Source of the DNA: Phycisphaerae bacterium
Lineage (GTDB): Bacteria; Chloroflexota; Anaerolineae; 4572-78; J111
Length of the DNA stretch: 28,480 nt
Reading direction: 5' to 3'
Assembly: GCA_028285035.1 (NCBI GenBank)
Contig: JANQQF010000098.1
Location: 1-28,480 of the forward strand
The notes beneath the pieces were generated by a model that did not search any database, was not told the DNA's origin, and saw nothing but the letters and a program-made list of their open reading frames with translations. The position numbers and the translations under genes are program-made. Shown piece by piece: positions 4,357 to 28,480 of the stretch (position 1 is the first letter of the stretch; each line of letters starts with the position of its first letter).

Positions 4357-4426
4357 GTCATTATGGCAATGAAGGACAAGCCGTTAGCGCAGTAATATAT
4401 TCAAATTGATAGGTGAGGTTGGGCTT

Positions 4427-7631: not shown

Positions 7632-7660
7632 TAAAATCGTTGCGCTATGCAACGATTTTA
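7632..7660 (+). terminator. Perfect 12-bp hairpin, likely terminator, covering the comEC start
   Basis: TAAAATCGTTGC (7632-7643) and GCAACGATTTTA (7649-7660) form a perfect stem with a 5-nt loop and A/T tails. It could terminate the preceding gene in either direction. It also covers the only plausible start codon (TTG 7640) of the truncated comEC, so that gene is either poorly expressed or controlled by the hairpin. Confidence 0.65.
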
Positions 7661-8578
7661 CATTCCCCCCTCATTCTATTAACAATAGGCTGGATCATCG
7701 GCCTACTTCTGGGGCGATGGTTTGTCCCTCCCTGGATTTTCATCATTCCCCCTCTTATTCCTTTAGTCAGCGCAATCATTTTATATCACAACAACCCTAA
7801 ATTTCGCATTGGAGCTGGTATCGGTTTAGCCTCTGTACTTGGCGCATCGCGCATTTTATTCACCTTGCCCAGCTTCGATGAGGCGGATGTAGCCTTTTAC
7901 AATGAAATGGATACTCCCGTTGAAGTCACAGGAACCGTCATCGCAGAGCCTGATGTCCGTGATTTTCATATTAATCTTCACCTCGCCACAGAAACAATAA
8001 CTACTCAAGGGGAAATTCATCTAGCGACCGGCCTGGTATTGGTCCGTGCCCCGCGCTATCCACAGTATCAATATGGAGATCGTTTAGTCGTTCGAGGCAA
8101 GCTAGAAACACCCCCAATTTTTGAAGATTTTTCATACAAGGATTACCTTGCTCAATTTGGTATTCACTCAATGATCCGTAGACCAAAAATTGAGTTGGTT
8201 GAGCGTGATCAAGGTAATCCATTTTGGACATTAATGTTAATTTTCAAGAGAGAAGCTGCACATACCATCAATGCTATCTTAAGTGAACCTTATGCGTCCT
8301 TGTTAAACGGAATTTTGTTAGGCATTGAAACAGGTATTCCCCGTGATTTATATGAGCAATTTAACTTGACCGGAACATCTCACATCATTGTCATTTCTGG
8401 CAGCAATATCTCTCTGATTGCTGGGATTTTACTTTTATTAGGCCAAAGAGTACTCGGCAGGCGCCTTGCCCCACCCATAGCTATCATTGGTATTGTAATT
8501 TACACATTTTTGGTTGGCGCTGATGCTGCGGTCAGTCGAGCGGCGGTCATGGGGGGAACCTGGGTCTTAGCGGTTTGA
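7640..8578 (+). pseudogene. comEC: comEC paralogue, truncated after the first part of the Competence domain
   Basis: The product resembles the DNA-uptake channel ComEC/Rec2 but stops after 312 residues, where full proteins usually run well past 450. N-terminal hydrophobic segments, the DUF4131-like OB region (about 60-170, VLVRAPRYP..QYGDRL) and the start of the Competence domain (SHIIVISGSNISLIAG) are present. It aligns with the second comEC at 27042: over about 159 residues before the break I count roughly 77% identity. It then ends WVLAV-stop where the other copy reads WIIALWVGRP. The TGA falls near a Trp codon of the intact copy, but no convincing homology follows, so this is more than a single nonsense change. 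The start is TTG 7640, inside a hairpin. Probably non-functional for transport. Confidence 0.8.
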
Positions 8579-9438: not shown

Positions 9439-10188
9439 TTAATGACCATTGCCATTTTGTCCATTTGTGTGTGGCTGGCCTAACATAGGTAACATATGGG
9501 CGCTTTCTGGTGATCCCATCATCAAAGCGATCTGGCCTGTTCGATTTTGTAAGCTGTTGATAAAACTTAGCTGATTAAAAAGCTGGACAAATTCAGGAGT
9601 CGGACAATTTCGCAACACCTCGCGTAACGCCTCATTATGTTTAACATTCAACATCGTCTCTTTGAATGCTTTAGGCCCAATCACTTCTTTAATTAGAATC
9701 CCGTCATTTTTTAACGGGGCCAAACCCAAAACCCGCATCGTTGCAGTTAAGTAGTGAACGAGATTGTATTCGATAATCGTCATCGTTTGTTGGTTGGAAA
9801 GGGTTTCAGCTTCATATTTAGCCACTAAACGGCGGAGACCTTGGTTGGTGTAATCTTTAACGATCGTGTTGAACAAGGCATCGCCTCCCTTGACTAACTG
9901 TGCGGCGGCGGCTTTGCGTGCTCGATCGGGTTGAAACGTGAAGAGAACGGTTATTTGAATGGTGAAGGGAATGTTGTCCTGACTTTGCACTTCCTCAAAG
10001 AAGAAGGTGCCAACGTGAATGCTTGTTTTTACAGGGGGTAGGACTTTCTCAAAAAACGGGATAATCCAAAGTAGACCAGGGCCTTTAACCCGGTGGTATC
10101 GGCCCAGCCGTAAAATCGGTGTGGTATGATTGTCGGGCGTAAAGTAGATGCCAACTAATTTTCCTAGCGCTTGAATAAGCCACGTCAT
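9439..10188 (-). CDS. SPFH/band-7 domain protein without obvious membrane anchor
   Basis: A 249-residue protein matching the SPFH (stomatin/prohibitin/flotillin/HflK) fold. The typical segments are visible: RVKGPGLLWIIPFFEKV near residues 38-54, then strands ending in the DNIPFTIQITVLFTF core, then helices with VKDYTNQGLRRLVAKY. The usual N-terminal transmembrane helix is absent or replaced by a short amphipathic stretch (WLIQALGKLVGIYF). The C-terminus is Gly/Asn/His-rich and disordered. Such proteins form membrane-associated ring or cage oligomers. The start at 10188 is chosen because GGAGG lies 8 nt upstream; the upstream in-frame ATG (10203) overlaps that site. It is 21 nt after a small gene and 22 nt before the next. 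Confidence 0.8.
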   Translation of the reverse strand: MTWLIQALGKLVGIYFTPDNHTTPILRLGRYHRVKGPGLLWIIPFFEKVLPPVKTSIHVGTFFFEEVQSQDNIPFTIQITVLFTFQPDRARKAAAAQLVKGGDALFNTIVKDYTNQGLRRLVAKYEAETLSNQQTMTIIEYNLVHYLTATMRVLGLAPLKNDGILIKEVIGPKAFKETMLNVKHNEALREVLRNCPTPEFVQLFNQLSFINSLQNRTGQIALMMGSPESAHMLPMLGQPHTNGQNGNGH

Positions 10189-10209
10189 AATATATTCCTC
10201 CATTTGCTG

Positions 10210-12454: not shown

Positions 12455-12513
12455 AGGAAAAAATAAAGAGCGAGATAGACTGTTAAGCGTTACGACAGTC
12501 TCTGTCTCGCTCT
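12455..12513 (-). terminator. Long terminator hairpin closing the signalling operon
   Basis: Arms 12467-12483 (AGAGCGAGATAGACTGT) and 12495-12513 pair over about 17 bp with a 2-nt bulge and an 11-nt loop. On the minus strand they are followed by TTTATTTTTTCC. It lies about 50 nt after the stop of the last operon gene, giving a clear 3' boundary to the four-gene unit. Confidence 0.85.
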
Positions 12514-12564
12514 CTAGTACGAGTTGAACTTTGGTCTTGATGGTCTTTATCAACTCAAGGGTAT

Positions 12565-14535
12565 TTAGTCATCAGCCAACTCAAGCCGATATCCCTCTCC
12601 TCTTATGACAATGATATATTTAGGGTGTTTTGGATTAGGTTCGAGTTTTTTACGCAAACGACTCATCGTTGAATTAATTCTGCCTTCTTCTATTCGACCT
12701 TTCTCCATCTCTGACACATCTGCCTCAAAAGTCACACCAAAAACCTGTTCCGCAATCGCTGTCCGAGATGATAGCTGCCCTGAACGATGATAAAGATAAC
12801 GCAGTAGTTCAAATTCCTGAGAGCTTAGGGGGACTGACCTCCCTTCAACCCACACTTCTTTGTTAGTTTCATCAATCCAAAGACTCTGGAGGGCTTGTTG
12901 AGGTAAATCTTCTCTGGGTGGAGGCGGGGTCAGCCTTTGACAAAGCAGGGCGGCAGTTAGCAAACTGTGAAGATAGGGGATTAGCTCACGGCGTATATAT
13001 CTTATCTTCGGATCATAACGGATCAAATAAGCCAGGGTACTAAAAAAGAGTCCAGCCAGATAGACATTCAAATCTTGGTCAATGATCGTGGAAGCTAAGT
13101 ATCGAATCCTTTGAACCGCCTGAAGAATCTTCTGGGCTTCAAGATCTAAATCCTGAGTATCAATCGCTTGCGCTAAATTACTCACAGCTAATAGGCGCTG
13201 CTCCAGGTCGTATCGTGTCGCTATGTCTAGCGTTTCGAGCAACTCAAGCTTCAGGGCAGCCTCTAACGAAACAAAATCACGCAGCAAGGGGCCTTGACCT
13301 ACCTGAGTGAAATAAACTAGCCACGTTTTTCCGATACGATTGACCAATACATTGTCAATATTTAGCCTGCCGTGAATCGTACCACAGACGATAGGCTGAT
13401 CAAACCCAATCCGTTCTTGATATAAATAAGTGATAGGATTTTGCAGGGTAACGGGCGAACTTTCTGGGAGGTAGAAGGTCAACTGATGCGGTGAATAATC
13501 AAAGCGGGCTAGATCATTAGCCAGTGCTTCTTGGCACAGGGTTTCCACGCGCGCTTCTAATTCTGCTTGCAAAATCATTTCACATCGGAACAAATCATTG
13601 AGTTCTACTTTTTTTAAGTGCTTACCATTTCTGTACCAGGGTGCAAGTGTATTATGAAAAAGCTCATCGATAGCTACCTGAATCATATCAGTCGATTTAT
13701 TTTGATAAAATTCTCTAAAAGTTTTGATCCTCTCTAAATCGCCATCCACCACGGTATAGATTGTGGCTCCATAATGAACCGTTTCTTCTGTTTTCTCCTT
13801 TACCGTACTGCCCGGTCCGATGCCTTTTGGGACAGATTGATCATAGTGATTATTCTCTTGATAAATTTGTTGTCTTTGCCCTACAGATAGAATAAATTGT
13901 TTTTCTCCGCCCTGTTCGGTATAAGCAAATCCTTGCAGGATCACTTGTCCCGTTTCTTGAAAGAGCAGCTGATAAATCGTAATCTGAGTATTCTCATAAA
14001 AAAGTTTACGAAATAAATCTTCTAGCTCCCCCATTCGATCTGGTAAATTATCGTCATCTAGTTGTGAATCAATCAAGTTTGCCAACATAAAGAAGGAATT
14101 ATTGTTACGCCAATGAATGGTCAAATCCCAATTAAGATGAAGATACTCCTGAAATACTTCTTGAACTGCTTGGAACATAGCCTCCGGCCCTTCACCCTTA
14201 CCAATAAATTTTACGGCTGGGGCCAAGCCATCTAGTGTTTGCCCTAAAGCTTCTCGGGCGTGTTCATAGCTCGGATGCGCGGTCAGTATTATTTTGGGCA
14301 TTGAGCGGTATCGTTCATCTTGCGCCAACACTAATCCGCCAATATCCTCTTCTGCTTCGTCCACCTCCATCCGAATATCAAGAATAGCAATATGAACATG
14401 TTTACTGCTCAAAATTATGCTCGCTTCAGATACCGTACTAGCCATTAAAACCTGATAGCCAGCTTGTTCTAAGAGCCTGGCGTGCACAGCCAGGAAATTT
14501 AAATTATTATCCATAAAAAGGATAGTTTTTTTCAT
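12565..14535 (-). CDS. Response regulator: receiver + dead kinase-like (TCAD9-type) domain + OmpR winged helix
   Basis: The receiver (1-130) has D9, phospho-acceptor D53 (ILDIRM), T85 and K113 in GKGEGPEA. Residues about 140-440 resemble the TCAD9 kinase-like fold known from Chloroflexota: a beta-rich N-lobe with FILSVGQ, where active relatives as I recall them have a Lys, then TIHGRLNIDNVLV in place of HGDLN, then WLVYFTQVGQGPLLRDF in place of IDFA. All three expected catalytic residues (K, D, D) are thus replaced by S217, R390 and Y408, so it is a pseudokinase if the family call is right. A helical region follows, then a DNA-binding winged helix (about 545-655) with QEFELLRYLYHR and the RGEGYRL wing. 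It is the DNA-binding output of the operon. Its ATG overlaps the previous stop (ATGA), so translation is coupled. The TCAD9 call is from memory of the motif. Confidence 0.85.
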   Translation of the reverse strand: MKKTILFMDNNLNFLAVHARLLEQAGYQVLMASTVSEASIILSSKHVHIAILDIRMEVDEAEEDIGGLVLAQDERYRSMPKIILTAHPSYEHAREALGQTLDGLAPAVKFIGKGEGPEAMFQAVQEVFQEYLHLNWDLTIHWRNNNSFFMLANLIDSQLDDDNLPDRMGELEDLFRKLFYENTQITIYQLLFQETGQVILQGFAYTEQGGEKQFILSVGQRQQIYQENNHYDQSVPKGIGPGSTVKEKTEETVHYGATIYTVVDGDLERIKTFREFYQNKSTDMIQVAIDELFHNTLAPWYRNGKHLKKVELNDLFRCEMILQAELEARVETLCQEALANDLARFDYSPHQLTFYLPESSPVTLQNPITYLYQERIGFDQPIVCGTIHGRLNIDNVLVNRIGKTWLVYFTQVGQGPLLRDFVSLEAALKLELLETLDIATRYDLEQRLLAVSNLAQAIDTQDLDLEAQKILQAVQRIRYLASTIIDQDLNVYLAGLFFSTLAYLIRYDPKIRYIRRELIPYLHSLLTAALLCQRLTPPPPREDLPQQALQSLWIDETNKEVWVEGRSVPLSSQEFELLRYLYHRSGQLSSRTAIAEQVFGVTFEADVSEMEKGRIEEGRINSTMSRLRKKLEPNPKHPKYIIVIRGEGYRLELADD

Positions 14536-15407
14536 TCCTCCTCCTCTCTCACGCTTGGTTGCTGAAAATCTTGTGGTCTGATTTTAACTATATCACCTCC
14601 TTTTTGTGGCAGCGCAAACCAACTGTTCGCAGCTACCCTGATGACCCATTCTGTCGAACGTGTCTGTTTTTCCAAAGGGAGTTGTTCAGAGGCGGCTAAT
14701 AAAAGTTCTAGCCAATAGGTCTGCAATAACTCGCGATGATACGTATCCATCCGATTGTTGGCCAGATTAAGTTGCTTGAAAAACAGATAGCCCAATACCT
14801 CCAGAATAATCCCACTCGTAGTCCCTACAATGCCGATACTCAATTTGGTAAACCAAGCCAGATAAATCCCAATTAAAATCAGCAAAAATCCAAGAATAGA
14901 AACAACCCCTGCCATCCAGTAATTAAGTTTGGCCTGTTGACGAGTCTCTTTGTGATCAGCTTTTATTTGCTCGGACACTTTTATGGTCGACATCCGCAGA
15001 CGAGGCCAGGTCTCCAGCGTAGTTCGAATCGTCTTGAGCAAGGCTTCAGGACCTTCCGCTTTATTAACCCAAGCCAAGGCCGGGGGTAAATCATCGGCAT
15101 TCAGGCCTAGGGCGTTGCGTATATTCTCAGGCGAAGCCTGAAAGCCAGTGAAGATGATTTTGGGGATATTACGAAATACCTTATCCATTGCAATTTCTAA
15201 GCCGCTAATATCATTGATGTCGTCATCTTCAATCAATCTAGGATCAAGAATGGCCAAATCTACACCTGTATTTGTAAGGATAGAACGCGTCTCATAAGGC
15301 GTTGCCGCCACCTTAACTTCATATCCAGCTTCAACTAAGACCTTGTACCAAGTATCACGCGCTTTAGCATCATTGTCGGCTAACAAAATTATGTTCCGCA
15401 TCATCAC
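14532..15407 (-). CDS. Membrane response regulator: receiver + two-TM CyanoTRADDas_TM-like domain
   Basis: A receiver domain (1-135) with D11/D13, phospho-acceptor D55 (AILDPRL), T87 and K116 in NKAEGPEALL. After a charged coiled segment (140-162) come two membrane helices (about 164-186 and 189-210) and then FFKQLNLANNRMDTYHRELL. This arrangement resembles the two-helix domain found with TRADD-N domains in cyanobacteria and Chloroflexota. A cytoplasmic tail of about 80 residues ends the protein. There is no enzyme or DNA-binding domain, so it probably relays the phosphorylation state to a membrane partner. GTG 15407 or either of the next two ATG codons may be the start; GGTGA lies just upstream. 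It starts 6 nt after the giant kinase gene. Confidence 0.75.
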   Translation of the reverse strand: MMMRNIILLADNDAKARDTWYKVLVEAGYEVKVAATPYETRSILTNTGVDLAILDPRLIEDDDINDISGLEIAMDKVFRNIPKIIFTGFQASPENIRNALGLNADDLPPALAWVNKAEGPEALLKTIRTTLETWPRLRMSTIKVSEQIKADHKETRQQAKLNYWMAGVVSILGFLLILIGIYLAWFTKLSIGIVGTTSGIILEVLGYLFFKQLNLANNRMDTYHRELLQTYWLELLLAASEQLPLEKQTRSTEWVIRVAANSWFALPQKGGDIVKIRPQDFQQPSVREEEE

Positions 15408-15413
15408 TCACCA

Positions 15414-18400
15414 TCAATTACTATTTACCGTTTCTTTTTGGGCCGTTTCTATGGGAAGGGTGATGACCATCGTTGTCCCCTTATCGCTGGTGGCCTCCAG
15501 GCGAATATCCCCCCTATAAGTTTGAAAAATAGTTTGGGCCAACATGAGACCGATACCAGAGCCTCGGCTTCCTTTTGGTTTTGGTATCGGTTTTTTGAAT
15601 AACCGTTTGGCAATATTTGGAGATATACCAGGGCCGGTATCGGTAATTGAGATCTCAACGGCTTCCCTGAGTAACTGGGTCGCCACGATAAGCTGTCTCT
15701 CCTGACGCTCTGATTTATCCATAGCTCGTATCGCATTATCAATCACCAACTCCAGCCCCCGACGCAGCCATTCTCGACTGGCGCGGATCGTTACTTGATC
15801 TAAATCTTTATCAGGTTTGTAATGTAGCTCTACCGATTTGTAACGATTATGAGTCCACTGTAGGTCTAGATACGATTTCAACAACTTGTTGATTTGAACC
15901 GAGTCTATAGCATCCTCATAAGATAGAGGAGCGGTAATTGGAATCTCTTTAATAAGCTTAATCGCGATTTTGAGCTGTTCCAACTCATCACGCATCTCAG
16001 CCGTAACGTTTCCTTTTTTGATCATACTTTGCAGCAAGGCTACCCGCCCCAAGGCTGTACCAACCTCACGATTAATGTTATGACCCCAAGCGGTGTGAAC
16101 CATCTTGATCCAATCTACAGCCGTATGGGTGCCGATGTACCCTTTGATCTTTTTCATTTCCTCATATTGGCCAGCACGATCAATCGCCACGGCTGCTACA
16201 CTTGCTAAACTTTCTAATAATGTGATCTGACGTTCTGAAAATGAACGTGGTTTATCATCGCGGACATAGAGTACGCCAATTGCGTCTCCTCCGCTTAATA
16301 AGGGCGTACCAAGTGAGGCCCGATAACCTTTTTTGATGAAGGTAGGGTTGAAATCAGGTATTTGTTGTGCATCGGGAATAACGATAGTTCTCCTCTTGTC
16401 AATGATCTTACGAGCACGTCCGTCTCTGTGACGCGATTGGGAGGTGTACCATTCAACTACCCCCTTAGGATTAATTCTAAGGGCTCGGGTAAATTTCTCT
16501 TTTTTTGCATCCCAGAATAGAACGCTGCTTTCTTGCGTGTTTGTAAGGCTCATTGCCTCATAAATAATTACTGATAATACCTCTTCTAATTCAGAAACCC
16601 CAGCTAAGACGATGGCGGCTTGATGTAAGGCATTTACCTCATGTAAACGTTCGGTTGCTTCCTGATACAGTCGAGCATTTTGGATAGCACTAGCGGCTTG
16701 AGCTGCTAAAGCTTCCAAGACTCTTTGATCTTCTTCATCAAAAGCATTAAAATCAGCATGTTGGACACTAATAACACCAAAAACCTCATTGTCAACCTCA
16801 ATTGGTACGACAAGTTCTGAGCGTGTCTCCAAATCTCCAATCAGATAATCAGGATCGGTTGTAACATCATTAACCAATTGAGGCTGGCGTTGTTTTGCTG
16901 CACGTCCTGTAATCCCAATACGTTCGTTTATGCCTTGTTCTAGATCTATTTCTAGATTGTAAACCTGTGATGATTGTGTAAACTTTTTTCTAGGGTAGGC
17001 CGAAACCATTCTACTTGTGCTTGCTTCTATCAATCTAATACAAGCAAAGCAATTTTCTTTACCCTGATATCTTGTTATGCCCCAGGCTTGTTCAACAATT
17101 CGGGTCAGAATCTTATCTAATTCAAGTGAACTCGTTACTAAACGACCAGCTTCATATAAAGTTTGACGGAGCCCAACACGTTTCTGTTCTCGCTCATACA
17201 ATTGTGCATTTCTGATGGCAGTAATAGCGTGCTCACCAATTACTGTGAGTAGTCTCTCATGATGATGATCAAAAGCATTAGGAAAATCGTTGACCAGTTC
17301 CAATGTCACAATAGAAACATCGTCCGCCTGTAAAGGTACGCCTAAATAGGAACGGATAGGTCTCTCCTGATCCATTACTTTAGGCTTAATGTCCTTGCGA
17401 TTCAAACAATCCTTGATCAACAAGGGTTTTTTGTGGCGTACAATCCAGCCGGTATATCCTTCATCAAGCGAATACTTGCCATTTGCTTGTGTGGTATATC
17501 GAGGATCGCCTACCTGACGAAAAACTATCATGGCTTGACGATCTTCATCCCAACGACATATCTCAGCCGCTCTGTAGTCAATTAGAGATCGAACTGAGGT
17601 CAAAATGGTATTTAAGGTGATATCTAGGTCAAGACTGGTGTTGATAATGCGGCTAATATTAGCAATAGCAACCATATGTTGAGCGTGTTGTTCCTTCTGA
17701 CGGTATAAGGTGGCGTTCTGGATAGCAATGCCTGCTTGAGTAGCCAAAGCTTCTAAAGCTCGTTGATCGTCTTTATCGAAGACATTGAGATCAGAATGTT
17801 CTAAGTTAATAACACCGATTGCTTGTTCCTCAACTTTAATCGGTACGGCTAACTCTGAACGGGATTCTGGGGTATATTCAATATAGTCGGGGTTGTCGGT
17901 GGTATTACCAACCAATTGCGATTTTCCACTTATGACCGCTCGCCCGGTGACTCCAATCCGGGCGCCTGTTGTCAGGTCTATATCGCCTACTCTTTCTTGT
18001 AATATTTGTAACTGCTCTTTTGGGTAAGTAGCAGCAAATACTAACTTATTGTTGTTTATTAAGGCTAAATGGCTAAAGTGTGCTTGTTCACCATAAGCAT
18101 TCATAAAGGTCCAAGCTTGCTCGACAATAATAGAAAGAATTTTGTCTAAATCCAAAGAACTGGTTATGGCCCGACCAGCCTCGTTTAATGCTTGTAAAGC
18201 TCTAGCTCGTTTTTGGACCTGATCATACAATTGTGCATTACGAATAGCTACAGCCGCCTGATAAGCAAACAGTTTAATGTTAAGCAACTCATCATCTGTA
18301 AAGTGGTGTCTGCTCCTATAACTAACGATCATTACTCCTACTTTCGAGTCTCTAGTGATAAGAGGAACAGCTACTGAAGACAAAATTTCCTCACTCTTTG

Positions 18401-21400
18401 AGAAAGGGTCGTGCATTAGCGGATCGGTTGGCCTGTTTTCTGCAACATATAGGTCGTCAAGGGGTAAGATGTTATGAATTACCGATTGCTCAGTCACCCT
18501 CCCCGGCGCAAGAATCTGCTCAGGATGTTGAACCCCAACCATTGCAGGTGGAAAGCCAAACCGCTCCAAATCCTGGTCGTAGGTATAGAGGGTTACCACA
18601 TCACAACCCAGAACAGTGTATATCTCTTTCACAATAGACTCTAGCGTACTTTGTGGGTCTTCCAACACGGTCACCTCAGCGACCACCCGAGTAGCATTGT
18701 GCGCTTTCCGAACCTGATCGAGCAATTTAGCCTTCGTCAAGGCTAAGGCCGCATGATTAGCAAAAGTTTCGGCAATTTTTCGTTCATCTTCATTGAAGTT
18801 ACGAATACGCTTATAATTTACATAGAGTATTCCAAGTGGGATATCATCCACACTTAGGGCAACCCCCTGAAAACTCCGGGCTTCTATAAAATTAAGAAAA
18901 TCTTGGGTGAGTTGGCCCAGGAAAGGATATTTCTCTTTATCTTCTATATCCCCAACGCCAGCCCATTTCTGTTCTAAGACGGCAAAGTCTGTGGGACTTG
19001 TCCAAGCTCTGCCCTGAAGAAAATTCGCCAGTGTTCCGGTTGGAATACCCGAAGCAACCACTCCGTCCACAACGAATCGATTCTGAGAAACATCATAAAA
19101 TAAGGTAGAAGCTGAGTCAGCCTCTAATACTTCGCAAGCACTTTGAACAATTTGTTTTAGAACTTGTGGTAGTTCAGCTACGCTGGCTAAGGCCTCTGAA
19201 GCTTGACGCATATAGTCCAACTCTTTGATTCGTCGAGAACTATCATAAGCAATAGCAGCCTGGTTGACATACAGTTGCAATGCAGCAACTTCAGACCTCA
19301 GAAAATGTCGAGCCTTACTATAATGAAGCCACATCACCCCAATTCGTCTCCCTTCTAAGGAGACGGGTAGGCACAAGGCAGCAGAAATATTACGCCAGAA
19401 CACACTCGGATTAATATCTGGTTTCTTGCTTGTATCTTCGATAATTTCAGGTTGACCTGTATGCATTACTTGTATTGAATATCCATTTGGTCGAACCACA
19501 TTACTAATATCAACTTGTGTATCATCTGTACCTACAGTAATTAGATATTGGGCTTGCCCCATTTGATCAATTAAAATCAGGCTACCTCCATCCGCCTTAG
19601 CAGCTACAAGAGCCTGTTCAATAATATCTTGCAATACCTGTTTAGGGTTGTGGGATGAAACAAGAGCATTGCTGGCCTCAAAGAAGGAATTGAGCCTCTC
19701 CTGAGCAATGTTAGTTTCATACAATAATTGTGTATTATCGATGGCTACTGCTGCGGTGTTAGCAAACATCAGTAATGAGTTAATGTCTTCGGATGTGATA
19801 GGTGAACGGGTAAACTTATTGTCAGCAACTAAAAGACCAATTACTTGTTCCCGAGCTATGAGCGGAACCACAATAAGGGGTAAAGCCGGTTTAAAGGCCT
19901 GAACGAAGTTGTCTGGAATTTTTTCAGCTTCATTTTGATTAATCAGGATCCAGGATTGTTTATGAACAATTTGTGAAAAAATGTCATGGTCTACTTCAGC
20001 TAATGGTATCTGAAGACCATCAATCCTCTCTCCCAAAGGAGTAATAGGTAAGGCATCTTGTTCTAATAACATAAGGTATTTTTGGAAATCTTCCCGGCGA
20101 TGCCGGTGATGATGAGCCCAATCTTCCCACGCCTCTGCTTCGGTCAAGTATCCAATCCCCATACGACCAACAAGATGATCTCTGGTTTCATCAAGTAATA
20201 GCAGCACAGCTCGATTGAAACTTAGACCATAACCGGCTGTCACACCTGTTAATATAACATGTAATATTTTGTCCAAATCTCTGGCAACTTGGATATAATC
20301 ACCGATTTTATGCAGAATAGCCAACTGCCCAAACATACGCTGTTCCCGACTCATCAATCGAGAAGTTTGTAAAACAATTGAAGCTTTAGCTGCAAATCGT
20401 TCCAAAATCTCCAAATTCGTCTGGGTCAGTCTATGCAGGTTTGTAGTACAGGCGACAAATAAAACAGCCTCTACCTCGCCAGCATGTTTTAGCGGAATGC
20501 CAACCACTGTCTGAAAATGGTAAGCCTCAAAAATATCTTCACGGTCAGACCATTTATCATAATCGTAGATAATTTGAGCTTGACCAGTTTGGGCCGTAAG
20601 CCCAATTATGCCTTCTGTATATGGAAACCTGTGTCCGATGAGTACATCTGGTAACTCATAGACTACTTGCAAATCCAACTCTTGGAGCTGGGAGCGATTA
20701 ATACACAAGCCACCAGCGGTGCAGCCCACCAACTCGGCTGCTAAACGAACGACCTCAGGTAATAATTTAGCTGTTTCTTTCTCAGCCCGAATATGTCGTG
20801 ATGCTTCATCTAATGCCGTCAAAAGTTGTGTCTGTTCGCTTAGTTCGACAACAAGTTCAGCCCCTTCTATAGCAGTCACAACAGCATCAGCAAATAGATG
20901 GAGGATCCACTCGTCTTCTTTAGAAAAACCAATCGCAGGTTTGGGCTTTCCACTTTCATCTTTTTTGTTATCAACTCGTAGTAATCCGATCAGTCTATTT
21001 TTATTTTTGCATTTCTTTATCAAAGGGATAGCCAAGACTGAATAAAGATCCTCAGATTGTCCATGATACCCCTGCCATTGAGCAGCAGAATGTGTGCGTA
21101 ATGTTTCACCATACGCACTAAAGAGCTTTCCTTCAAAAGCAATATGTCCGTTCAGGCCACTTTTTGGATGACTCTGAATGGCAAATTCTCGTCCTTTTTC
21201 AAACTCTCCTTCTCGATGCCCATAACTGGCTTCAAGACTCAAGTAATCGGGGCGTTTAACTAGAAAAATCGCAGAAGTCTCTGCCCTTAGAATCTCCGTT
21301 GCGTGTCTCGCGACCAAATTCAATCTTTCATTGAGTGGCATATCAGCCAAGTTACCCATGATCTCGCCATTAACCTGAGCCAGTCGCTCCAAGCGATGAA

Positions 21401-24338
21401 GTTTGCTAGTATCCTGGTGGATTAACTCGGCATTTTCAAGGGCAACTGCGGCTAAATTCCCCAAATGAGCCAGTAAATTTTGTTGTTCTGGGCCAAAGAT
21501 TTGATCTTCTACTACATCATGAACAACAATAACGCCCCAAATTTTATCTTGCCAGGTAATTGGAGCACCAACTACTGCAGTAAAATTACATGCATCAAGC
21601 TGTGGCATGCGATGAGGCCAATTTCGATAATCCGATATAAAGACAGGCTGTCTTATTTGAATTACCTGACTCACAACACTATCTTCAATCTCAAATGTTT
21701 CTTCTCTAAATTGACTTAAATCTCCAGATGATTCAACCAAAGTGAACCGCCGACTATCTTCAGCCAAGGCGTAAAGTCCCCCCCCTTTAGCCCCTAATAA
21801 CTCTACAGCTCGTTCTAAAATAGAGTTAAGCAGCTCTGGCATCTGCCGATAACCGGTGATTTCGAGCGCTGTTTGATGTAACTCACCTAAAGTGTGGGCC
21901 CGATCATGGGTTTGTTCAAATAGTCTGGTATTCTGGATGGCAATTGCGGCTTGGGTTGCCATTAGGGACAGGATTTGTAAATCATCTTCATTAAAGGCAT
22001 AACGGTCGCTTCGACTGTGTCCATCTAACGTCCCAATAATCTCACCACCTGCCACAAGAGGGGTACTAATAATGGCTAACCACCCCTCTTCATCCGCCGA
22101 TGGGTTAAAAAAGCGAGGCTCACTAGGTAGATTATTCGCAATCATTGCTCGACCTGTCTGAACGGCCCGACCAGCAATACTTTCGCCTATCTCATCACGA
22201 GTGCCTTCTGTTACCTTTTTGCTTAGGTTATACGCCCCTTTGAAGGTCAAGTATTGTTTTTGATCATCTAGCAGTAAAATGCCTGCTGAGTCTGTGTCGA
22301 GTAACTTTGCGGTTTGTTCAGAGATTAGATTAAGTAATCTAGGCAGAGCCAATTCTGATTGCATAGCTCGGGTAATCTGGTGTAAGGCCAAGAGTTGTGA
22401 AGCCATCCATTTAGAATGGTCTCGCTCTTTGACGACTCTTCCCAAGCGGGCGTTCTCTATCAGAATAGCCAACTGACCAGCCAATTCCTGAAGTAATTCT
22501 AAATCACGCTGACTAAACTGCTGCTTTTGGGTGCCATTAACAAAGAGCGCCCCGATGACTCTAAAATTAGGTATCTCATTGGACTCAGATCGAATTTTTA
22601 AGGGAACACCCATAATGGATTTGATCCCTTTGTTTTTCGTCGATTGTTTTACCCGTGAATCTCGTTTGGTGTTGGGAATCACGATTGGTTGGCCAGAAGC
22701 AATGACAAGATGGGTCAGCCCGTCCTGTCGCGGGCTAAATTTATCTATCGTTGACGATGATAATCTTACCGCTTGGGTAGGGTGCCCCGTTTCTTCACTA
22801 ACCAAAGTAACCGTACCGGATTTGGTACCAAGCAAAATGCAGGCACTCTCCGTAATCTTTTGCAATATCTCATCTAAAGGCAGAGCCGCAAGGGATCTAA
22901 CAACATTTCGAAGTATTTGGGACTCAATGGGTACTACCAGATGACTGATCAATTCAGAAAGGAATACTGCATCTGAGTCCTTAAAAAAATTGCTGTTTTT
23001 GTTGTCAGCATTGATCACTCCTAATATACGTCCATGTGAAACAATGGGTACCGATAGTAAAGAGCCACAATTTCTGCTGTTGGGTAGTTCTTTAAAGTAA
23101 GTGTCTTGAGCAACATTCGGACAGTTATAGGATGTTCCTGTCCCCATAACCCGCCCTGCCACCCCTTCGACTAAAGATAGTTTTACAAAGGAGTTCTTAT
23201 CTTTGAGTTCACCATCAATAATCCATATCTTCATTTCAAGCTCATTTGTGACTGGATTAGCCAGCATAATTGAACCTGAATCTGTGCCGATACTTTGCAA
23301 TCCCTCTCTAAGAATCGCCTCCAAAACGTCCTCTAAATCAAGGGCTGCACTGATACGCTTGTTGATTTTGTTAAGTATCTCTAGTTGATGGGCACGCTGT
23401 TCTATTTTATGAGCATCTTCTTGTTCTTTCGCTTTGAGACGGGCATTCTCAATTGCCGTCGCTGCTTGAGCCGCAAATAGATCGGTGAGTCTAAGTTCAG
23501 ACTTAACAATGGGTCGCTGACTAACCTTGTTATCCATCGACAACTTACCAATCACTTTCCCTTGTACAATTAGGGGGATGCAAGCCCATTGTTTAACCCC
23601 TTTTCGCTTCAAAACGCGTTCGTAGGGAATGGAGCGATTATTTCTTCGTTCGAAGATATGGGGACGAGGATCACTCAGTAAGATTTGCATATACTTATCT
23701 TTGGACACAGGGCGTTTATGCCCAACAAACTGTTCCCCTACATTAACTTGGGCTGTCCCTATCATTGTTTTACGATTTTCAGACAAGAGGTAGAGACACA
23801 CCCGGTCAAAACCAATAGCTTGTACACCCTTGAGAATAACGTCTAGTACCTGTGTTAAACTCTGCCTGCTAAGCAAGGCTGGACTGCTCTGCATCAATTG
23901 CTCTAAAATCTGTTTTTCGTGAGCTACACTTTTTAGTCGGCGATGTTCGACGGCTGTCTGGATAAGCATTTCTAGTTCTTCAAAGTTTAGTGGTTTGGTC
24001 AGATAGCGATAGGCCCCGCTCCGTAAGGCTTCCAGCGCAGAGCCCATTCCTCGCCCGGTAAAGACAATAACTTCTGTTTCCGGATAGCGGCTCTTAATTT
24101 CTTTAGTCAACATCACGGCTAGGGGTTCTGGCTCTTGATCCGCTTCAGGTGCCAATAAATCATCTATCAACGCAATATCGTAATTGCTTTGGTCTTTAGC
24201 AAGCAATTCTAATGCTGCCTTAGCATCGAATGCCGTATCAACTTGGCAGTTGAGCGTACGGTTCAAATATTTAGCCAAACCCTCCCGGAGACTTTCTTCA
24301 TCATCCACGAGTAACACCTTCAACAGTTCCTGACTCAT
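15414..24338 (-). CDS. Giant hybrid kinase: receiver + 15 GAF domains + histidine kinase (2974 aa)
   Basis: The N-terminal receiver (about 1-130) has D12/D13, phospho-acceptor D59, T94 and K115 (LTKP). From about 150 to 2730 I count 15 consecutive GAF domains, each running from an L..(I/V)L..I helix to a final (A/V)AI.NA.L-type helix, about 170 residues per unit. GAF 12 and 14 are especially alike (ARIGVTGRAV and ERIGITGRAA; NPDYIEY and DPDYLIG), pointing to internal duplication. The C-terminus has an atypical H-box, AWGHNINREVG (His about 2753), then a HATPase domain with VIDNAIRAM (N about 2868), TDTGPGI and GSRGSGIGL. No membrane segment is seen, so it should act in the cytoplasm as a multi-ligand sensor. 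GGGGA/AGG precedes the ATG; the upstream gene ends 15 nt before. One unbroken frame of 8.9 kb argues for strong selection. Confidence 0.9.
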   Translation of the reverse strand: MSQELLKVLLVDDEESLREGLAKYLNRTLNCQVDTAFDAKAALELLAKDQSNYDIALIDDLLAPEADQEPEPLAVMLTKEIKSRYPETEVIVFTGRGMGSALEALRSGAYRYLTKPLNFEELEMLIQTAVEHRRLKSVAHEKQILEQLMQSSPALLSRQSLTQVLDVILKGVQAIGFDRVCLYLLSENRKTMIGTAQVNVGEQFVGHKRPVSKDKYMQILLSDPRPHIFERRNNRSIPYERVLKRKGVKQWACIPLIVQGKVIGKLSMDNKVSQRPIVKSELRLTDLFAAQAATAIENARLKAKEQEDAHKIEQRAHQLEILNKINKRISAALDLEDVLEAILREGLQSIGTDSGSIMLANPVTNELEMKIWIIDGELKDKNSFVKLSLVEGVAGRVMGTGTSYNCPNVAQDTYFKELPNSRNCGSLLSVPIVSHGRILGVINADNKNSNFFKDSDAVFLSELISHLVVPIESQILRNVVRSLAALPLDEILQKITESACILLGTKSGTVTLVSEETGHPTQAVRLSSSTIDKFSPRQDGLTHLVIASGQPIVIPNTKRDSRVKQSTKNKGIKSIMGVPLKIRSESNEIPNFRVIGALFVNGTQKQQFSQRDLELLQELAGQLAILIENARLGRVVKERDHSKWMASQLLALHQITRAMQSELALPRLLNLISEQTAKLLDTDSAGILLLDDQKQYLTFKGAYNLSKKVTEGTRDEIGESIAGRAVQTGRAMIANNLPSEPRFFNPSADEEGWLAIISTPLVAGGEIIGTLDGHSRSDRYAFNEDDLQILSLMATQAAIAIQNTRLFEQTHDRAHTLGELHQTALEITGYRQMPELLNSILERAVELLGAKGGGLYALAEDSRRFTLVESSGDLSQFREETFEIEDSVVSQVIQIRQPVFISDYRNWPHRMPQLDACNFTAVVGAPITWQDKIWGVIVVHDVVEDQIFGPEQQNLLAHLGNLAAVALENAELIHQDTSKLHRLERLAQVNGEIMGNLADMPLNERLNLVARHATEILRAETSAIFLVKRPDYLSLEASYGHREGEFEKGREFAIQSHPKSGLNGHIAFEGKLFSAYGETLRTHSAAQWQGYHGQSEDLYSVLAIPLIKKCKNKNRLIGLLRVDNKKDESGKPKPAIGFSKEDEWILHLFADAVVTAIEGAELVVELSEQTQLLTALDEASRHIRAEKETAKLLPEVVRLAAELVGCTAGGLCINRSQLQELDLQVVYELPDVLIGHRFPYTEGIIGLTAQTGQAQIIYDYDKWSDREDIFEAYHFQTVVGIPLKHAGEVEAVLFVACTTNLHRLTQTNLEILERFAAKASIVLQTSRLMSREQRMFGQLAILHKIGDYIQVARDLDKILHVILTGVTAGYGLSFNRAVLLLLDETRDHLVGRMGIGYLTEAEAWEDWAHHHRHRREDFQKYLMLLEQDALPITPLGERIDGLQIPLAEVDHDIFSQIVHKQSWILINQNEAEKIPDNFVQAFKPALPLIVVPLIAREQVIGLLVADNKFTRSPITSEDINSLLMFANTAAVAIDNTQLLYETNIAQERLNSFFEASNALVSSHNPKQVLQDIIEQALVAAKADGGSLILIDQMGQAQYLITVGTDDTQVDISNVVRPNGYSIQVMHTGQPEIIEDTSKKPDINPSVFWRNISAALCLPVSLEGRRIGVMWLHYSKARHFLRSEVAALQLYVNQAAIAYDSSRRIKELDYMRQASEALASVAELPQVLKQIVQSACEVLEADSASTLFYDVSQNRFVVDGVVASGIPTGTLANFLQGRAWTSPTDFAVLEQKWAGVGDIEDKEKYPFLGQLTQDFLNFIEARSFQGVALSVDDIPLGILYVNYKRIRNFNEDERKIAETFANHAALALTKAKLLDQVRKAHNATRVVAEVTVLEDPQSTLESIVKEIYTVLGCDVVTLYTYDQDLERFGFPPAMVGVQHPEQILAPGRVTEQSVIHNILPLDDLYVAENRPTDPLMHDPFSKSEEILSSVAVPLITRDSKVGVMIVSYRSRHHFTDDELLNIKLFAYQAAVAIRNAQLYDQVQKRARALQALNEAGRAITSSLDLDKILSIIVEQAWTFMNAYGEQAHFSHLALINNNKLVFAATYPKEQLQILQERVGDIDLTTGARIGVTGRAVISGKSQLVGNTTDNPDYIEYTPESRSELAVPIKVEEQAIGVINLEHSDLNVFDKDDQRALEALATQAGIAIQNATLYRQKEQHAQHMVAIANISRIINTSLDLDITLNTILTSVRSLIDYRAAEICRWDEDRQAMIVFRQVGDPRYTTQANGKYSLDEGYTGWIVRHKKPLLIKDCLNRKDIKPKVMDQERPIRSYLGVPLQADDVSIVTLELVNDFPNAFDHHHERLLTVIGEHAITAIRNAQLYEREQKRVGLRQTLYEAGRLVTSSLELDKILTRIVEQAWGITRYQGKENCFACIRLIEASTSRMVSAYPRKKFTQSSQVYNLEIDLEQGINERIGITGRAAKQRQPQLVNDVTTDPDYLIGDLETRSELVVPIEVDNEVFGVISVQHADFNAFDEEDQRVLEALAAQAASAIQNARLYQEATERLHEVNALHQAAIVLAGVSELEEVLSVIIYEAMSLTNTQESSVLFWDAKKEKFTRALRINPKGVVEWYTSQSRHRDGRARKIIDKRRTIVIPDAQQIPDFNPTFIKKGYRASLGTPLLSGGDAIGVLYVRDDKPRSFSERQITLLESLASVAAVAIDRAGQYEEMKKIKGYIGTHTAVDWIKMVHTAWGHNINREVGTALGRVALLQSMIKKGNVTAEMRDELEQLKIAIKLIKEIPITAPLSYEDAIDSVQINKLLKSYLDLQWTHNRYKSVELHYKPDKDLDQVTIRASREWLRRGLELVIDNAIRAMDKSERQERQLIVATQLLREAVEISITDTGPGISPNIAKRLFKKPIPKPKGSRGSGIGLMLAQTIFQTYRGDIRLEATSDKGTTMVITLPIETAQKETVNSN

Positions 24339-24353
24339 CCTACTTCCCCTGAA

Positions 24354-26624
24354 TTAATGATACTTACCGGTAGGTAACTCTACTAAAAAAGTGGTACCGA
24401 TTAGCATATAGCTTTTTTCAACACAAATCTTCCCGCCTAAACTATCAACCAAACTACGGGCAATATATAATCCCTGACCTGTCCCATTAGTACGCGTTGT
24501 AAAACCTAGCTGGAAAATTTTCTCATGCAAACGTCGGTGGATACCAGGCCCCATATCAGTGATTCTAATTTTGATCGGATGCATTTTATCCTGATCCTGA
24601 TATGATGTTTTTACAGTTAGTATTTTGCCCCGCTTTGGTTTTAAAGCCATCTGTTGGGCCGCATTAAGCATAATATTAAAAAACAGTTGCTGTAACTGAA
24701 TACTATTTCCTATCAAGTTAGGTAATTTGTCACTCAATTGAGTTTCTATGCTGACCCGCTGACTTTGCATTGTTGGTCGAAGTAAAGATACTGCCCTGCG
24801 GATGATTTCATTAATGTCGATATGTTGCTCGTCTTCCGAGCGCATCAATTGCTGAAAAAGTTCAACTGTCTCTTTCAAATCACTGAATGTTGTCAAAATT
24901 TTACCTACAGTTTGTTGCATTTCACCCAAACTCAAAGAATAGATTGTTTCAGGATCAGAAACTTGACAATCTAACTGTAAGTTGCGAAGCTGGAGTTCCA
25001 GTCCTGACAATTTGTTATATACCTCGTGGCTAAAGCCTCCAGCCAATTGTCCACTTAGAAGTATTTTGTCCATACTTTGAAAGCGATGTTCTATTTTTCC
25101 GCGTTCAATTGCTACAGAAAATAAAGAACAGGTGGTCAATGTATCTCGTAGATGATGATGATTGAAGGTCTCCGGTTGACGATGAAACAGAAAGACCGCT
25201 CGGTGTGTCTCTCCGGCAGCTTCTATGGGAACACCAATGCAAGACTCAAATGACAGTAGGTCTAACAGCTTACGAAACCGTGCTTGTGCTTGGTCTGATA
25301 CCCTATTCTCCAAAATTTGTTCACTGTCACGAATTACCTCCCGAACTGGACTGGCTTTGAGTGCATGAATTGCTGCTCTATTTAATTCTATCTCACCTAT
25401 ATCTATTGTTATTGATATTGCTTGAGAAATAGGGTTGAATTTGAAAATAAGACCATGTTCCGCTCCTGAAGCTATGATTAATTGTTTTAGGCCAAATCTA
25501 AACTGTTCTACCAATGAATGATTGGTATTCACGGTAGGAGCTAGTTTGTGAAACGGTTTTGAAGGGCTCAACTGAGGGAAAACTGTCGTCATCTGCCAAG
25601 GTGGCATCACCTCCCCCCGACCAATTCGAGTTAACAATTGGAGAATTTCATCTAAATCAAGCGGTTTTACAAATACTTCCACGACACCCACTTCCTCAAT
25701 CTCGCAGCTTCGTTTAGCCAGGTGTTCAGGTGTCGTCATAATAACCGCGTGGCAATTACTCCCGCCCTGTCTTATTTGTTGTAATAAGGCTAGCCCATCC
25801 CTGCTGTCTGATAGGTTGAGATCTACAATCAGTAGTCCATACCTTTCAGAAAATATTTTCTCAATGGCTTCTTTTGTATTTTTTGCCGCATCTACTGCAT
25901 ACCCTTGGTGCTGCAACCAATCCACCAAAGGTAACCGGATATCATCATAATCGTCTACCACTAAAATACGTCCAACCCGCTCAAAAAAAGGGGGGATAGT
26001 TTGACAGGCTTCCTCTAGGTATACTATCTTTGAAACGTCTGGCTTGTAAGCAATATTTAAGTTAGACAGTGGGTTAAGTTTTTGTACGACTCCGGTTACT
26101 AAATCCTGTTGTTGTAGCCGTGCCCGGACACTCAAACGCAATTTTCTGGCATGACTATTTAAGCGAGTAATAACGGCTTCGATTTGATCACCAATCCAGA
26201 TAACGTCCTCTGGTTTCTTTATATCCCAGGTTGCCAGCTCTTGAATAGGGATTAAGCCATCAACACCTGGCATTATTTCTACAAATATCCCATACGCGAG
26301 GACACTTTTGACAATACCCTCGATTATATCGCCCTGCTGAAACTGTTTAGCAAACTCTTGCCAGGGGTCGGACAAGATGGCTCGATGACTGAGTTCTAAG
26401 CTATACTCAGAATCATCAAGTTTAATGACAATCCCCTCAATACGATCCCCTTCTTTCCATAGTGTACGAGGGTCAATTGTCCCAGCCCAGGTCAGTTCTC
26501 GACGGCGAACATAAGCCCGAGTCCCATCATCTAGATTTATGAATATCCCATAACGCATTACCTTCTCTATCGTGCCTACAACTTGTTGTTGCAGACAATA
26601 ATCTTGTCTAGCCTGATCTGGCAT
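24354..26624 (-). CDS. Hybrid histidine kinase with two N-terminal S1 RNA-binding domains
   Basis: Domain order: S1 (about 10-82, with VVGTIEKVMRYGIFINL and SLELSHRA), S1 (97-170, with IIEGIVKSVLAYGIFVEI and LRLSVRARL), possibly the start of a third S1 (172-195), a receiver (218-335; D224/D225, phospho-acceptor D268, K320 in VKPL), a GAF-like domain (about 375-510), HisKA (H-box FSHEVYNKL, His 533) and HATPase (NIMLNAAQQM, DMGPGI, GTGQGL). All kinase motifs are intact. S1 domains usually bind single-stranded RNA in ribosomal protein S1, PNPase or RNase E; as the N-terminal part of a histidine kinase they are unusual and suggest that RNA or the ribosome is an input. The first gene of the four-gene operon, behind an extended -10 promoter. 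Its GGGGCGGAGT site lies immediately before the ATG. Confidence 0.9.
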   Translation of the reverse strand: MPDQARQDYCLQQQVVGTIEKVMRYGIFINLDDGTRAYVRRRELTWAGTIDPRTLWKEGDRIEGIVIKLDDSEYSLELSHRAILSDPWQEFAKQFQQGDIIEGIVKSVLAYGIFVEIMPGVDGLIPIQELATWDIKKPEDVIWIGDQIEAVITRLNSHARKLRLSVRARLQQQDLVTGVVQKLNPLSNLNIAYKPDVSKIVYLEEACQTIPPFFERVGRILVVDDYDDIRLPLVDWLQHQGYAVDAAKNTKEAIEKIFSERYGLLIVDLNLSDSRDGLALLQQIRQGGSNCHAVIMTTPEHLAKRSCEIEEVGVVEVFVKPLDLDEILQLLTRIGRGEVMPPWQMTTVFPQLSPSKPFHKLAPTVNTNHSLVEQFRFGLKQLIIASGAEHGLIFKFNPISQAISITIDIGEIELNRAAIHALKASPVREVIRDSEQILENRVSDQAQARFRKLLDLLSFESCIGVPIEAAGETHRAVFLFHRQPETFNHHHLRDTLTTCSLFSVAIERGKIEHRFQSMDKILLSGQLAGGFSHEVYNKLSGLELQLRNLQLDCQVSDPETIYSLSLGEMQQTVGKILTTFSDLKETVELFQQLMRSEDEQHIDINEIIRRAVSLLRPTMQSQRVSIETQLSDKLPNLIGNSIQLQQLFFNIMLNAAQQMALKPKRGKILTVKTSYQDQDKMHPIKIRITDMGPGIHRRLHEKIFQLGFTTRTNGTGQGLYIARSLVDSLGGKICVEKSYMLIGTTFLVELPTGKYH

Positions 26625-26694: not shown

Positions 26695-27041
26695 CGTTCA
26701 ATGTAATACTATCTTGCAATTGACTAACAATTAGCTAACAGAATTTCTTATTATTCAGTTTTAACTATTCCTTAGCGGCAGAAATATATTGATTTGCATG
26801 CAAAAAATACACTACCCTAGACAATTAAGCCTTAAGTCCAAATCTATCATGTTCACTACCCCCTCAAGCTTCTATGGATGCCCTATCCAGAAGTAGTCAG
26901 CCGATAAATCAGTGATTTCCTTTGCCGCTTCAAATCAATGTCCAATGGTAACAACGAACGCACTATATCATCAGATACATAACCAGAAATTTCGTGTGTC
27001 CGATATACTATGTTAAAATCATCGGTACAGGAGAATTTCTG
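26695..27041. other. Divergent intergenic region between signalling operon and comEC
   Basis: No gene is supported. It contains a perfect 12-bp palindrome TTTGCATGCAAA (26793-26804) that could be an operator. Weak plus-strand -10 candidates lie before comEC (TATACT 27004-27009, TAAAAT 27014-27019) without a clear -35. Confidence 0.4.
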
Positions 27042-28480
27042 ATGCCACTGTTATCTCGTCTAAGTATAGCTTGGATACTCGGAATTGCTTTAGCTAACTG
27101 GTTTAACTTCCCTTGGCCAACCCTTGCCTTGCTCAGCCTTCCTGCACTTAGTGCTCTGCTCCTTTATCGACACAATACATCTGCCCAAACTGGAGCTATG
27201 CTTGTCCTGGCTTTGATATCAGGAGCTTTTCGATTAAGTTTCTTCCAACCTGTCATTGATAACTCACAAATTGCCTTTTACAACGATCAAGATACACCGA
27301 TTACCACTACGGGTTTAGTTGTTGATGAGCCAGACATCCGAGATAATTACATCAACCTCCGCCTAGAGGCTGAGTCCGTTCAAATAGACGGTACCATTCA
27401 GCCTGTTGAAGGACTGATTCTTATTCGTGCCCCTCGTTATCCAGAGCGTTTCTATGGTGACCGTCTCACCGTTACGGGCAAAATAGAGACTCCCCCTATC
27501 TTTGATGATTTCTCTTACAAAGATTATTTAGCCCGTTTTGGCATCCACTCAATGATCCGACGACCTAAAATTGAATTGATCGAAGGCAATCAAGGTCATC
27601 CATTCTGGGCAACAATGTTTGACTTCAAAGCCCAAGCCTCCCAAACCATTAATCGCATTCTAGCCGAACCCTATGCCTCCCTGCTCAATGGTATCTTGTT
27701 GGGCATTGAAACAGGTATCCCTCGTGATTTGTATGAGGAATTCAATCTGACTGGAACCTCTCATATTATCGTCATTTCGGGCAGCAACATCGCCCTGATT
27801 GCAGGTATATTCCTCCTGCTGGGTCAACGCACTGTTGGCAAACGATATGCCCCACCATTAGCTCTCGTCGGTATCATTATTTACACGCTTTTAGTTGGGG
27901 CAGATTCTGCGGTAAGCCGAGCCGCCTTTATGGCTGCACTCTGGATTATCGCCTTATGGGTTGGGCGGCCAGCCTTTACGTTAAATGCACTTTTCTTTGC
28001 TGCCTTCGCTCTGACTCTGATTAATCCCTTAACCCTGTGGGATGTGGGCTTTCAGTTGAGTTTCATGGCCACACTTAGCCTAATTATCCTCGTACCGCCT
28101 TTGGAAAGAGTTATCTTTGGTTGGTTGCAAAATCGGTTAAGAACCGAGCAGGTTGGTTTCGTGATGGCACTTTTCAGTGAGTTAGTCATCCTTACCCTAG
28201 CTGCTCAAATTATGACAGGACCACTCATCGTCTATCACTTTGGCCGTTTTTCTTTAGTATCCTTGTTGAGTAACCTACTTATTTTACCCGCTCAACCACC
28301 TATTATGATTGTAGGTGGCTTGGCGACATTGGCAGGAATGATTTGGCTCCCATTGGGGCAGATCATCGGCTGGTTAGTCTGGCTACCCTTGGCTTGGTCA
28401 GTTTGGGTTGTTGAGCAGACCGTCCAACTCCCTTACGCTTCCCTCGATTTAGGCAGATTTCCTATTGGATTACTGATCTT
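27042..28480 (+). CDS. comEC: ComEC/Rec2-type DNA-uptake channel (3' end outside window)
   Basis: An open frame of 479 codons runs off the right edge. The product begins with hydrophobic helices (MPLLSRLSIAWILGIALANW), has a DUF4131-like OB region (about 60-170), and then the Competence domain with TSHIIVISGSNIALIAG, VSRAAFMAALW and the family segment WDVGFQLSFMATLSLI, followed by further membrane helices. ComEC moves single-stranded DNA across the inner membrane in natural transformation. The C-terminal metallo-beta-lactamase-like domain of many ComEC proteins would lie beyond the edge, so its presence is unknown. AGGAG lies 8 nt before the ATG. This is the intact counterpart of the truncated copy at 7640-8578, at least as far as it is visible. 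Confidence 0.9.
   Translation, partial: MPLLSRLSIAWILGIALANWFNFPWPTLALLSLPALSALLLYRHNTSAQTGAMLVLALISGAFRLSFFQPVIDNSQIAFYNDQDTPITTTGLVVDEPDIRDNYINLRLEAESVQIDGTIQPVEGLILIRAPRYPERFYGDRLTVTGKIETPPIFDDFSYKDYLARFGIHSMIRRPKIELIEGNQGHPFWATMFDFKAQASQTINRILAEPYASLLNGILLGIETGIPRDLYEEFNLTGTSHIIVISGSNIALIAGIFLLLGQRTVGKRYAPPLALVGIIIYTLLVGADSAVSRAAFMAALWIIALWVGRPAFTLNALFFAAFALTLINPLTLWDVGFQLSFMATLSLIILVPPLERVIFGWLQNRLRTEQVGFVMALFSELVILTLAAQIMTGPLIVYHFGRFSLVSLLSNLLILPAQPPIMIVGGLATLAGMIWLPLGQIIGWLVWLPLAWSVWVVEQTVQLPYASLDLGRFPIGLLI

Follow-up and report, generated by a model that had tools for sequence, protein, structure and literature searches.

The window, i.e., the whole stretch of 28,480 nucleotides analyzed here, comprises four co-directional genes on the minus strand (12565-26624), each encoding a receiver (REC) domain according to the ORF calls and Pfam: (i) gene 1, in slot 1 (24354-26624; 756 aa), an S1-S1-REC-GAF-histidine kinase; (ii) gene 2, in slot 2 (15414-24338; 2974 aa), a REC-(GAF)15-histidine kinase; (iii) gene 3, in slot 3 (14532-15407; 291 aa), a REC-2TM protein of the CyanoTRADDas_TM type; and (iv) gene 4, in slot 4 (12565-14535; 656 aa), a response regulator in which a TCAD9 domain, a predicted APH-fold pseudokinase, is placed between REC and a winged helix. 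The coordinates of the ORF calls agree with the arrangement described in an earlier, sequence-only reading of this DNA, with 15 nt between genes 1 and 2, 6 nt between genes 2 and 3, and a 4-nt overlap of genes 3 and 4; gene 3 may alternatively start at ATG 15401 in place of GTG 15407, and its database copy comprises 289 aa. The same reading had the genes bounded by a promoter and a long terminator. The terminator stands, displaying a long hairpin followed by a U-rich tract on the minus strand (12458-12516; arms 12464-12479/12501-12516; fold z of -3.48, with 1 of 200 shuffles folding equally well); the promoter is only suggested, by a putative extended -10 element (TGnTATAAT; minus strand, 26694-26686) seen by eye about 60 nt before gene 1 and lacking a clear -35, and a consensus promoter scan of the minus strand between 26625 and 26993 listed none. 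From the sequence, we infer a single transcript for the four genes. A search of the whole window against Rfam gave no match at the gathering threshold. The flanking genes, encoding ATP sulfurylase, SPFH, and ComEC-like proteins, are of the housekeeping kind and form no defence island. Two ComEC-like genes are present, one of which (7640-8578, plus strand; 312 aa) covers no more than the beginning of the Competence domain and appears truncated, the other (26994-28478, plus strand) running off the window.

The Pfam search agrees with the four domain architectures, the GAF domain of gene 1 and the receivers of genes 3 and 4 scoring below their cut-offs. The slot 1 kinase displays two S1 domains, REC, GAF_2 (22.7 bits, below the cut-off of 28.6), and HATPase_c, and the slot 2 kinase displays REC, 15 GAF stretches, and HATPase_c. 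A home-made profile counts 14 GAF domains in gene 2, the most among the loci examined, with 1 to 12 in the related kinases, some of which are cut by contig ends. By eye, the H-box histidine lies in a GFSHEVYNK motif in slot 1, present in 7 of 7 aligned rows, and in a WGHNINRE motif in slot 2, present in 41 of 41, the window being included in both counts. Neither kinase has predicted membrane parts. As in two-component systems, a kinase with an H-box histidine and a HATPase domain adjoins a receiver protein, and the idea of two kinases serving more than one output finds support.

The resemblance of the membrane and kinase-like domains to CyanoTRADDas_TM and TCAD9 is borne out by scores above the Pfam cut-offs, with 58.7 bits against 24.3 for CyanoTRADDas_TM (PF20712) in gene 3 and 68.4 bits against 40 for TCAD9 (PF19974) in gene 4, which also matches Trans_reg_C. 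The receivers of the two proteins score 26.7 bits (gene 3) and 29.0 bits (gene 4), below the cut-off of 30.2. In the gene 4 receiver, Asp53, Thr85, and Lys113 are identical in all 64 aligned rows, and the usual acidic pair is replaced by Asp-Asn, also in 64 of 64; in the gene 3 receiver, Asn12, Asp55, and Lys116 never vary across 26 rows, Asp11 hardly does, and Thr87 is present in at least 90%. In addition, residues 1-134 of the gene 4 model (mean pLDDT 89.7) match receiver structures, PorX receivers among them, in a VIA-align comparison that listed mainly receiver structures and hence hardly tests TCAD9. Given the conserved phospho-site residues and, for gene 4, the model matches, both sub-threshold receivers are taken as genuine. 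The model of gene 3 (mean pLDDT 81.6) displays a long helical hairpin after the receiver; no known activity was found for CyanoTRADDas_TM.

The Foldseek matches of TCAD9 include APH(3')-Ia, homoserine kinase, and maltokinase, on the basis of which the modelled domain is assigned an APH-type fold. With alignment columns assigned by reading motifs, (i) the β-3 lysine occurs in none of the 64 rows, (ii) the aspartate of the HGD motif is not one of the eight most frequent residues, which together account for 58 of the 64 rows, and (iii) the DFG-type aspartate is present in 52 of 64, the window carrying tyrosine instead. Because the β-3 lysine is missing throughout and the window protein additionally lacks the DFG-type aspartate, the domain is best described as a pseudokinase, as had been suspected, and it probably relays or gates rather than phosphorylates. 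Searches at E values up to 0.001 gave 173 relatives for gene 4 and 148 for gene 3, 120 of them listed in each case. A mobile-element reading was considered and, as far as plasmids and phages go, rejected, the matches of gene 4 to 96 plasmid records never spanning 80% or more of its length and gene 3 having no match in the phage collection.

At E values up to 1e-50, REC-TCAD9 was found in at least 28 of 396 genomes of the class of G008, at least 6 of 400 genomes of its phylum, at least 19 of 56 genomes in the order of G011, and 1 of 48 genomes in the order of G405 (G405 itself); these genome sets overlap, and the survey counts are lower bounds because only a few first-look candidates were scored per genome (three in two TCAD9 surveys, six in the REC-2TM survey, and two in the S1-kinase survey). 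In a first scan with gene 4, 13 of 17 matches fell in Chloroflexota or groups within it, the others comprising two from one Proteobacteria MAG, one from an Acidobacteria MAG, and one from Pantoea that covers the winged helix only.

The gene neighbourhood was compared in 76 stretches (the window, L048, and L072-L145), mostly chosen by TCAD9 and labelled mostly with home-made profiles, 50 locus proteins and the database protein P0044 being checked with Pfam. These stretches contain 66 REC-TCAD9 ORFs, 31 with and 35 without the winged helix, which do not count as independent events because several loci are near-copies. Three ORFs start at a contig end; the remaining 63 all have 0.7 kb or more of upstream sequence. 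A HATPase gene on the same strand immediately precedes 61 of them, and for the last two (L048 and L081) the contigs end 1.0-1.2 kb upstream, showing only REC-2TM there. GAF and HATPase occur in one ORF in 58 of these 61 upstream kinases; the other three are L096, which has no GAF, L106, where it sits in the following ORF, and L117, at a contig end. A second anchor, the S1 kinase, matched at 1e-25 in at least 28 of 396 genomes, comprising 15 new loci, seven already in the sample, a match at a contig end (G098), and five partial matches. In each of the 15 new loci a GAF protein follows the S1 kinase, separated from it in L132 by a lone REC, and the GAF kinase is followed by REC-TCAD9 in ten, by EAD7-REC-CHAT in one (L131), and by the contig end in four. 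Taken over the sample, 23 of 24 S1-kinase genes precede a GAF protein, and in the 24th (L130) the GAF ORF overlaps by about 420 nt. The S1-kinase anchor gives the same neighbourhood as the TCAD9 anchor.

L089 and L124 carry the four genes in precisely the order of the window, and L130 comprises the first three genes followed by the contig end. Where REC-TCAD9 is devoid of a winged helix and has room downstream, a separate winged-helix gene comes next in 13 of 28 cases, those of L099 and L138 displaying, by Pfam, Trans_reg_C and AAA/STAND-like matches mostly below cut-off. The operon of the window is one case of a recurring module, and the neighbourhood comparison, with its kinase gene in 61 of 63 cases and two cases cut by contig ends, failed to overturn the earlier proposal of a conserved operon. 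An SPFH/Band_7 gene, a possible accessory partner, recurs in the vicinity of the module in many loci, often directly after the TCAD9 gene (9439-10203, minus strand, in the window; further cases in L125, L138, L139, L141, and L143). With a home-made Band_7 profile, for which three of these same loci supplied the seed, it was found within 2.4 kb downstream in 8 of 48 rows (the window, L072, L076, L078, L083, L086, L087, and L106) and on the opposite side, over 7 kb away, in three (L103, L109, and L110), and not in the other 37.

The membrane protein of the window occupies a swappable slot that lies after the GAF kinase and ahead of the TCAD9 regulator, being one of several exchangeable outputs, an aspect that the sequence-only reading had missed. 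The Pfam matches above cut-off in slot 3 comprise (i) REC-2TM proteins with PF20712 (L048, L079, L081, L089, and L124), (ii) REC joined to a CAP12-type TIR (L074 and L112), and (iii) REC-EAD7 (L073, L075, L083, and L125); L072 carries REC alone, and other relatives have a small degenerate receiver or nothing. Two further REC-2TM relatives fall short, PF20712 scoring 22.3 bits against the cut-off of 24.3 in L113 and L130 having no Pfam match. A REC-2TM survey of 396 genomes at E up to 1e-30 gave 22 matches in at least 15 genomes, four of which extend past the receiver into the membrane part, all four in such operons (L048, L081, L113, and L130). Among the 120 REC-TIR matches listed out of 7344, 65 carry REC and PF10137.

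Other places in these loci encode related fusions, including REC-CHAT (L105), EAD7-REC-CHAT (L131), REC-TCAD9-TIR_2 (L136), and REC-TCAD9-CHAT (L140), all above the Pfam cut-offs, and REC-TCAD9-SIR2_2 (L097, L098, and L099), with SIR2_2 at 25-32 bits against 24.5 and thus only just above in two; SIR2_2 is below cut-off in L128 and L129 and is not matched in L126. P0044, known as a protein alone, displays a caspase-REC-TCAD9-wHTH architecture above the Pfam cut-offs. By eye, the His/Cys motifs look intact for CHAT in three proteins and for the caspase in P0044.

On a 27-row tree of the regulator, the slot-3 label changes 10 times, against a mean of 10.5 for shuffled labels and with values as low in 81 of 200 shuffles; because the observed changes resemble those of shuffled labels, the slot-3 output turns over quickly. 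Slot 3 is also dispensable, since 16 of the 27 rows, including operons with only the small degenerate receiver, hold no ordinary REC or REC-effector there. The small degenerate receiver lies between the GAF kinase and the outputs (L073, L075, L076, L079, L082, L083, L087, L088, L090, and others), often where the kinase has no detected N-terminal REC, and by eye its acidic pair looks lost. In L075, a plus-strand gene (4411-6489) encoding TCAD9-bDLD1-EAD7, with a kinase motif intact by eye, lies upstream of the operon carrying REC-EAD7 in slot 3; homotypic EAD7 coupling of the two proteins is possible.

A tree of 92 receivers, built by a quick method from few columns, with 42 of 89 inner branches open and the deep forks weak, places the 15 slot-3 receivers (eight with 2TM, four with EAD7, two with TIR, and one alone) in one clade (SH-aLRT 95), which nests inside a 42-row clade with the slot-4 (TCAD9) receivers (SH-aLRT 99). 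Neither clade includes the slot-1 and slot-2 receivers, the REC-CHAT receiver of L105, or the stand-alone receivers encoded in L103, L105, and L119. In the window, identity between the receivers of slots 3 and 4 is 38% (132 columns), compared with 21% (81 columns) for the slot 2 receiver and 28% (54 columns) for that of slot 1. At the level of sequence, the slot-3 and slot-4 receivers evidently share ancestry. The earlier picture of four receivers as equal kinase targets does not hold up, because those of slots 1 and 2 lie outside the clade of output receivers, as far as the weak deep forks of the tree go.

Links to conflict-system domains, proposed from the outset, are supported. TIR, caspase, EAD7, and APH-like kinases are described as conflict-system effectors or adaptors in PMC7159879 and PMC8195603, the former describing EAD7 as recruiting effectors. 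The REC-TIR proteins carry a CAP12-PCTIR_TIR domain and match PDC-S35 of PADLOC, and the C-terminus of the REC-TCAD9-SIR2 protein of L099 matches ThsA. BrxL and PglZ genes lie directly upstream of a HATPase kinase gene in L096, with a REC-TCAD9-AAA gene next downstream; by eye, the ATG of the kinase gene lies about 13 nt after the BrxL stop and its product has a degenerate receiver-like start, and the three domain scores of the REC-TCAD9-AAA gene are all below the Pfam cut-offs. This link to BREX comprises a single locus, L096, to which the PADLOC scan of flanks was confined. PADLOC gave no match for genes 1, 3, and 4 of the window at E up to 0.001. The conflict-type domains and the BREX-adjoining locus speak for the suggested stress- or invader-sensing switch, the housekeeping flanks and the three genes unmatched in PADLOC against it; a role in invader sensing or defence is plausible.

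The best reading, which we consider moderately probable, is a branched two-component system that drives sister receivers with exchangeable conflict-type outputs. Two kinases would integrate internal signals, that of slot 1 sensing through its two S1 RNA-binding domains and that of slot 2 sensing small ligands or redox state through its long GAF array, and would phosphorylate a pair of sister receivers that share an unusual feature, Asp-Asn in the place of the acidic pair. The slot-4 receiver, tied to the APH-fold pseudokinase and the winged helix, would alter transcription, and the slot-3 receiver would carry the acting module, a two-helix membrane hairpin here and TIR, EAD7, or nothing elsewhere, CHAT or SIR2-like parts being attached to receivers or regulators outside that slot. 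The direction of phosphotransfer, the signals, the defence role, and the role of the 2TM protein as an effector rather than an anchor are what we infer from sequence. Such a system would most likely be a stress- or infection-triggered switch, in which a conflict-type effector and a gene-expression response are licensed together. A wider proposal, to which we would give slightly less than an even chance, is a kinase-gated class of conflict systems in which histidine kinases sensing both RNA state and many small ligands phosphorylate a plug-in receiver, phosphorylation deciding on both transcription and a suicidal or immune effector; the membrane hairpin, TIR, and the death-like adaptor would be its swapped outputs, with caspase/CHAT and SIR2-like domains on related receivers.

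The strongest competing explanation, which we nevertheless regard as unlikely, is an ordinary, if elaborate, two-component system that controls metabolism or redox in Anaerolineae, in which the 2TM part would only tether the receiver to the membrane and the TIR, CHAT, and SIR2 fusions would be functionally unrelated offshoots. The housekeeping genes around the operon, the many slot-3 positions devoid of an ordinary REC or REC-effector, and the winged helix, a normal OmpR-type output, are all consistent with it, but the receivers of the 2TM, TIR, and EAD7 proteins form one clade in the same operon position, and regulators fused to caspase, SIR2-like, CHAT, or TIR domains exist. Less probable still are receivers that respond to nucleotides or ligands as switches of their own, without input from the kinases, a mode proposed for MoxR-vWA receivers in PMC8195603; although the uniform Asp-Asn pair and the small degenerate receiver added in many operons would fit such switches, kinase genes adjoin wherever the contig allows, the H-box histidine is present in all aligned rows, and the Asp/Thr/Lys of the receiver are invariant. 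The phosphorelay of the sequence-only reading, taken in the strict His-Asp-His-Asp sense, with an HPt protein encoded elsewhere and the N-terminal receivers of slots 1 and 2 as intermediates, is very improbable: both kinases are hybrid, with an N-terminal or internal REC, but their receivers lie outside the clade of output receivers, and it is left unsupported because a Pfam search of the four proteins, at E up to 0.1, found no HPt domain.

Compared to known systems, the branched, kinase-driven arrangement favored here combines familiar parts. OmpR-type two-component systems with GAF-containing kinases comprise kinase cores, phospho-Asp receivers, and a Trans_reg_C winged helix, all of them common to the module, which differs by (i) a pseudokinase between receiver and winged helix, (ii) two kinases, (iii) a second, sister receiver with exchangeable outputs, and (iv) 15 GAF domains in one kinase and S1 domains on the other. 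The TIR and SIR2 effectors of CAP12/Pycsar and Thoeris are shared through the CAP12-PCTIR_TIR domain of REC-TIR and the ThsA match of L099; small molecules trigger the effector in those systems, whereas here it is fused to a receiver. We know of no slot exchange in PorXY, which also differs in its effector. PorXY likewise has a receiver fused to a non-transcriptional effector domain, PglZ, the link to PglZ being described in PMC12839542.

The MoxR-vWA ternary or EAD-coupled conflict systems, reported in Chloroflexi among others, have in common with the module a constant core and variable TIR, caspase, EAD7, APH-like kinases, receivers, and S1, according to PMC7159879 and PMC8195603. The core here is a histidine kinase pair, and the 16 window ORFs scanned gave no Pfam match to MoxR or vWA, the MoxR-vWA ternary arrangement being absent among them. 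In these sources, no histidine kinase was found among vWA-associated effectors (PMC7159879, 2020), conflict-system receivers occur independently of histidine kinases (PMC8195603, 2021), and the TIR and caspase-like protease effectors are tied to NTPases, proteases, or nucleotide signals (PMC7159879, PMC8195603).

A literature search, with subscription journals and preprints mostly beyond its reach, found no description of the operon; within the literature searched, the parts are known and the kinase-driven, slot-swapping arrangement appears undescribed. Judged from its domains, with membrane, NAD-cleaving-type, or adaptor parts taking turns in one slot from genome to genome, the module looks like a kinase-controlled alarm or cell-suicide switch. 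With one receiver family, several swapped outputs, and two kinases, it is directly testable. If histidine kinases do license exchangeable effectors by way of a shared receiver, as they appear to, this conserved module would tie the most common signalling machinery of bacteria to immunity and programmed death.
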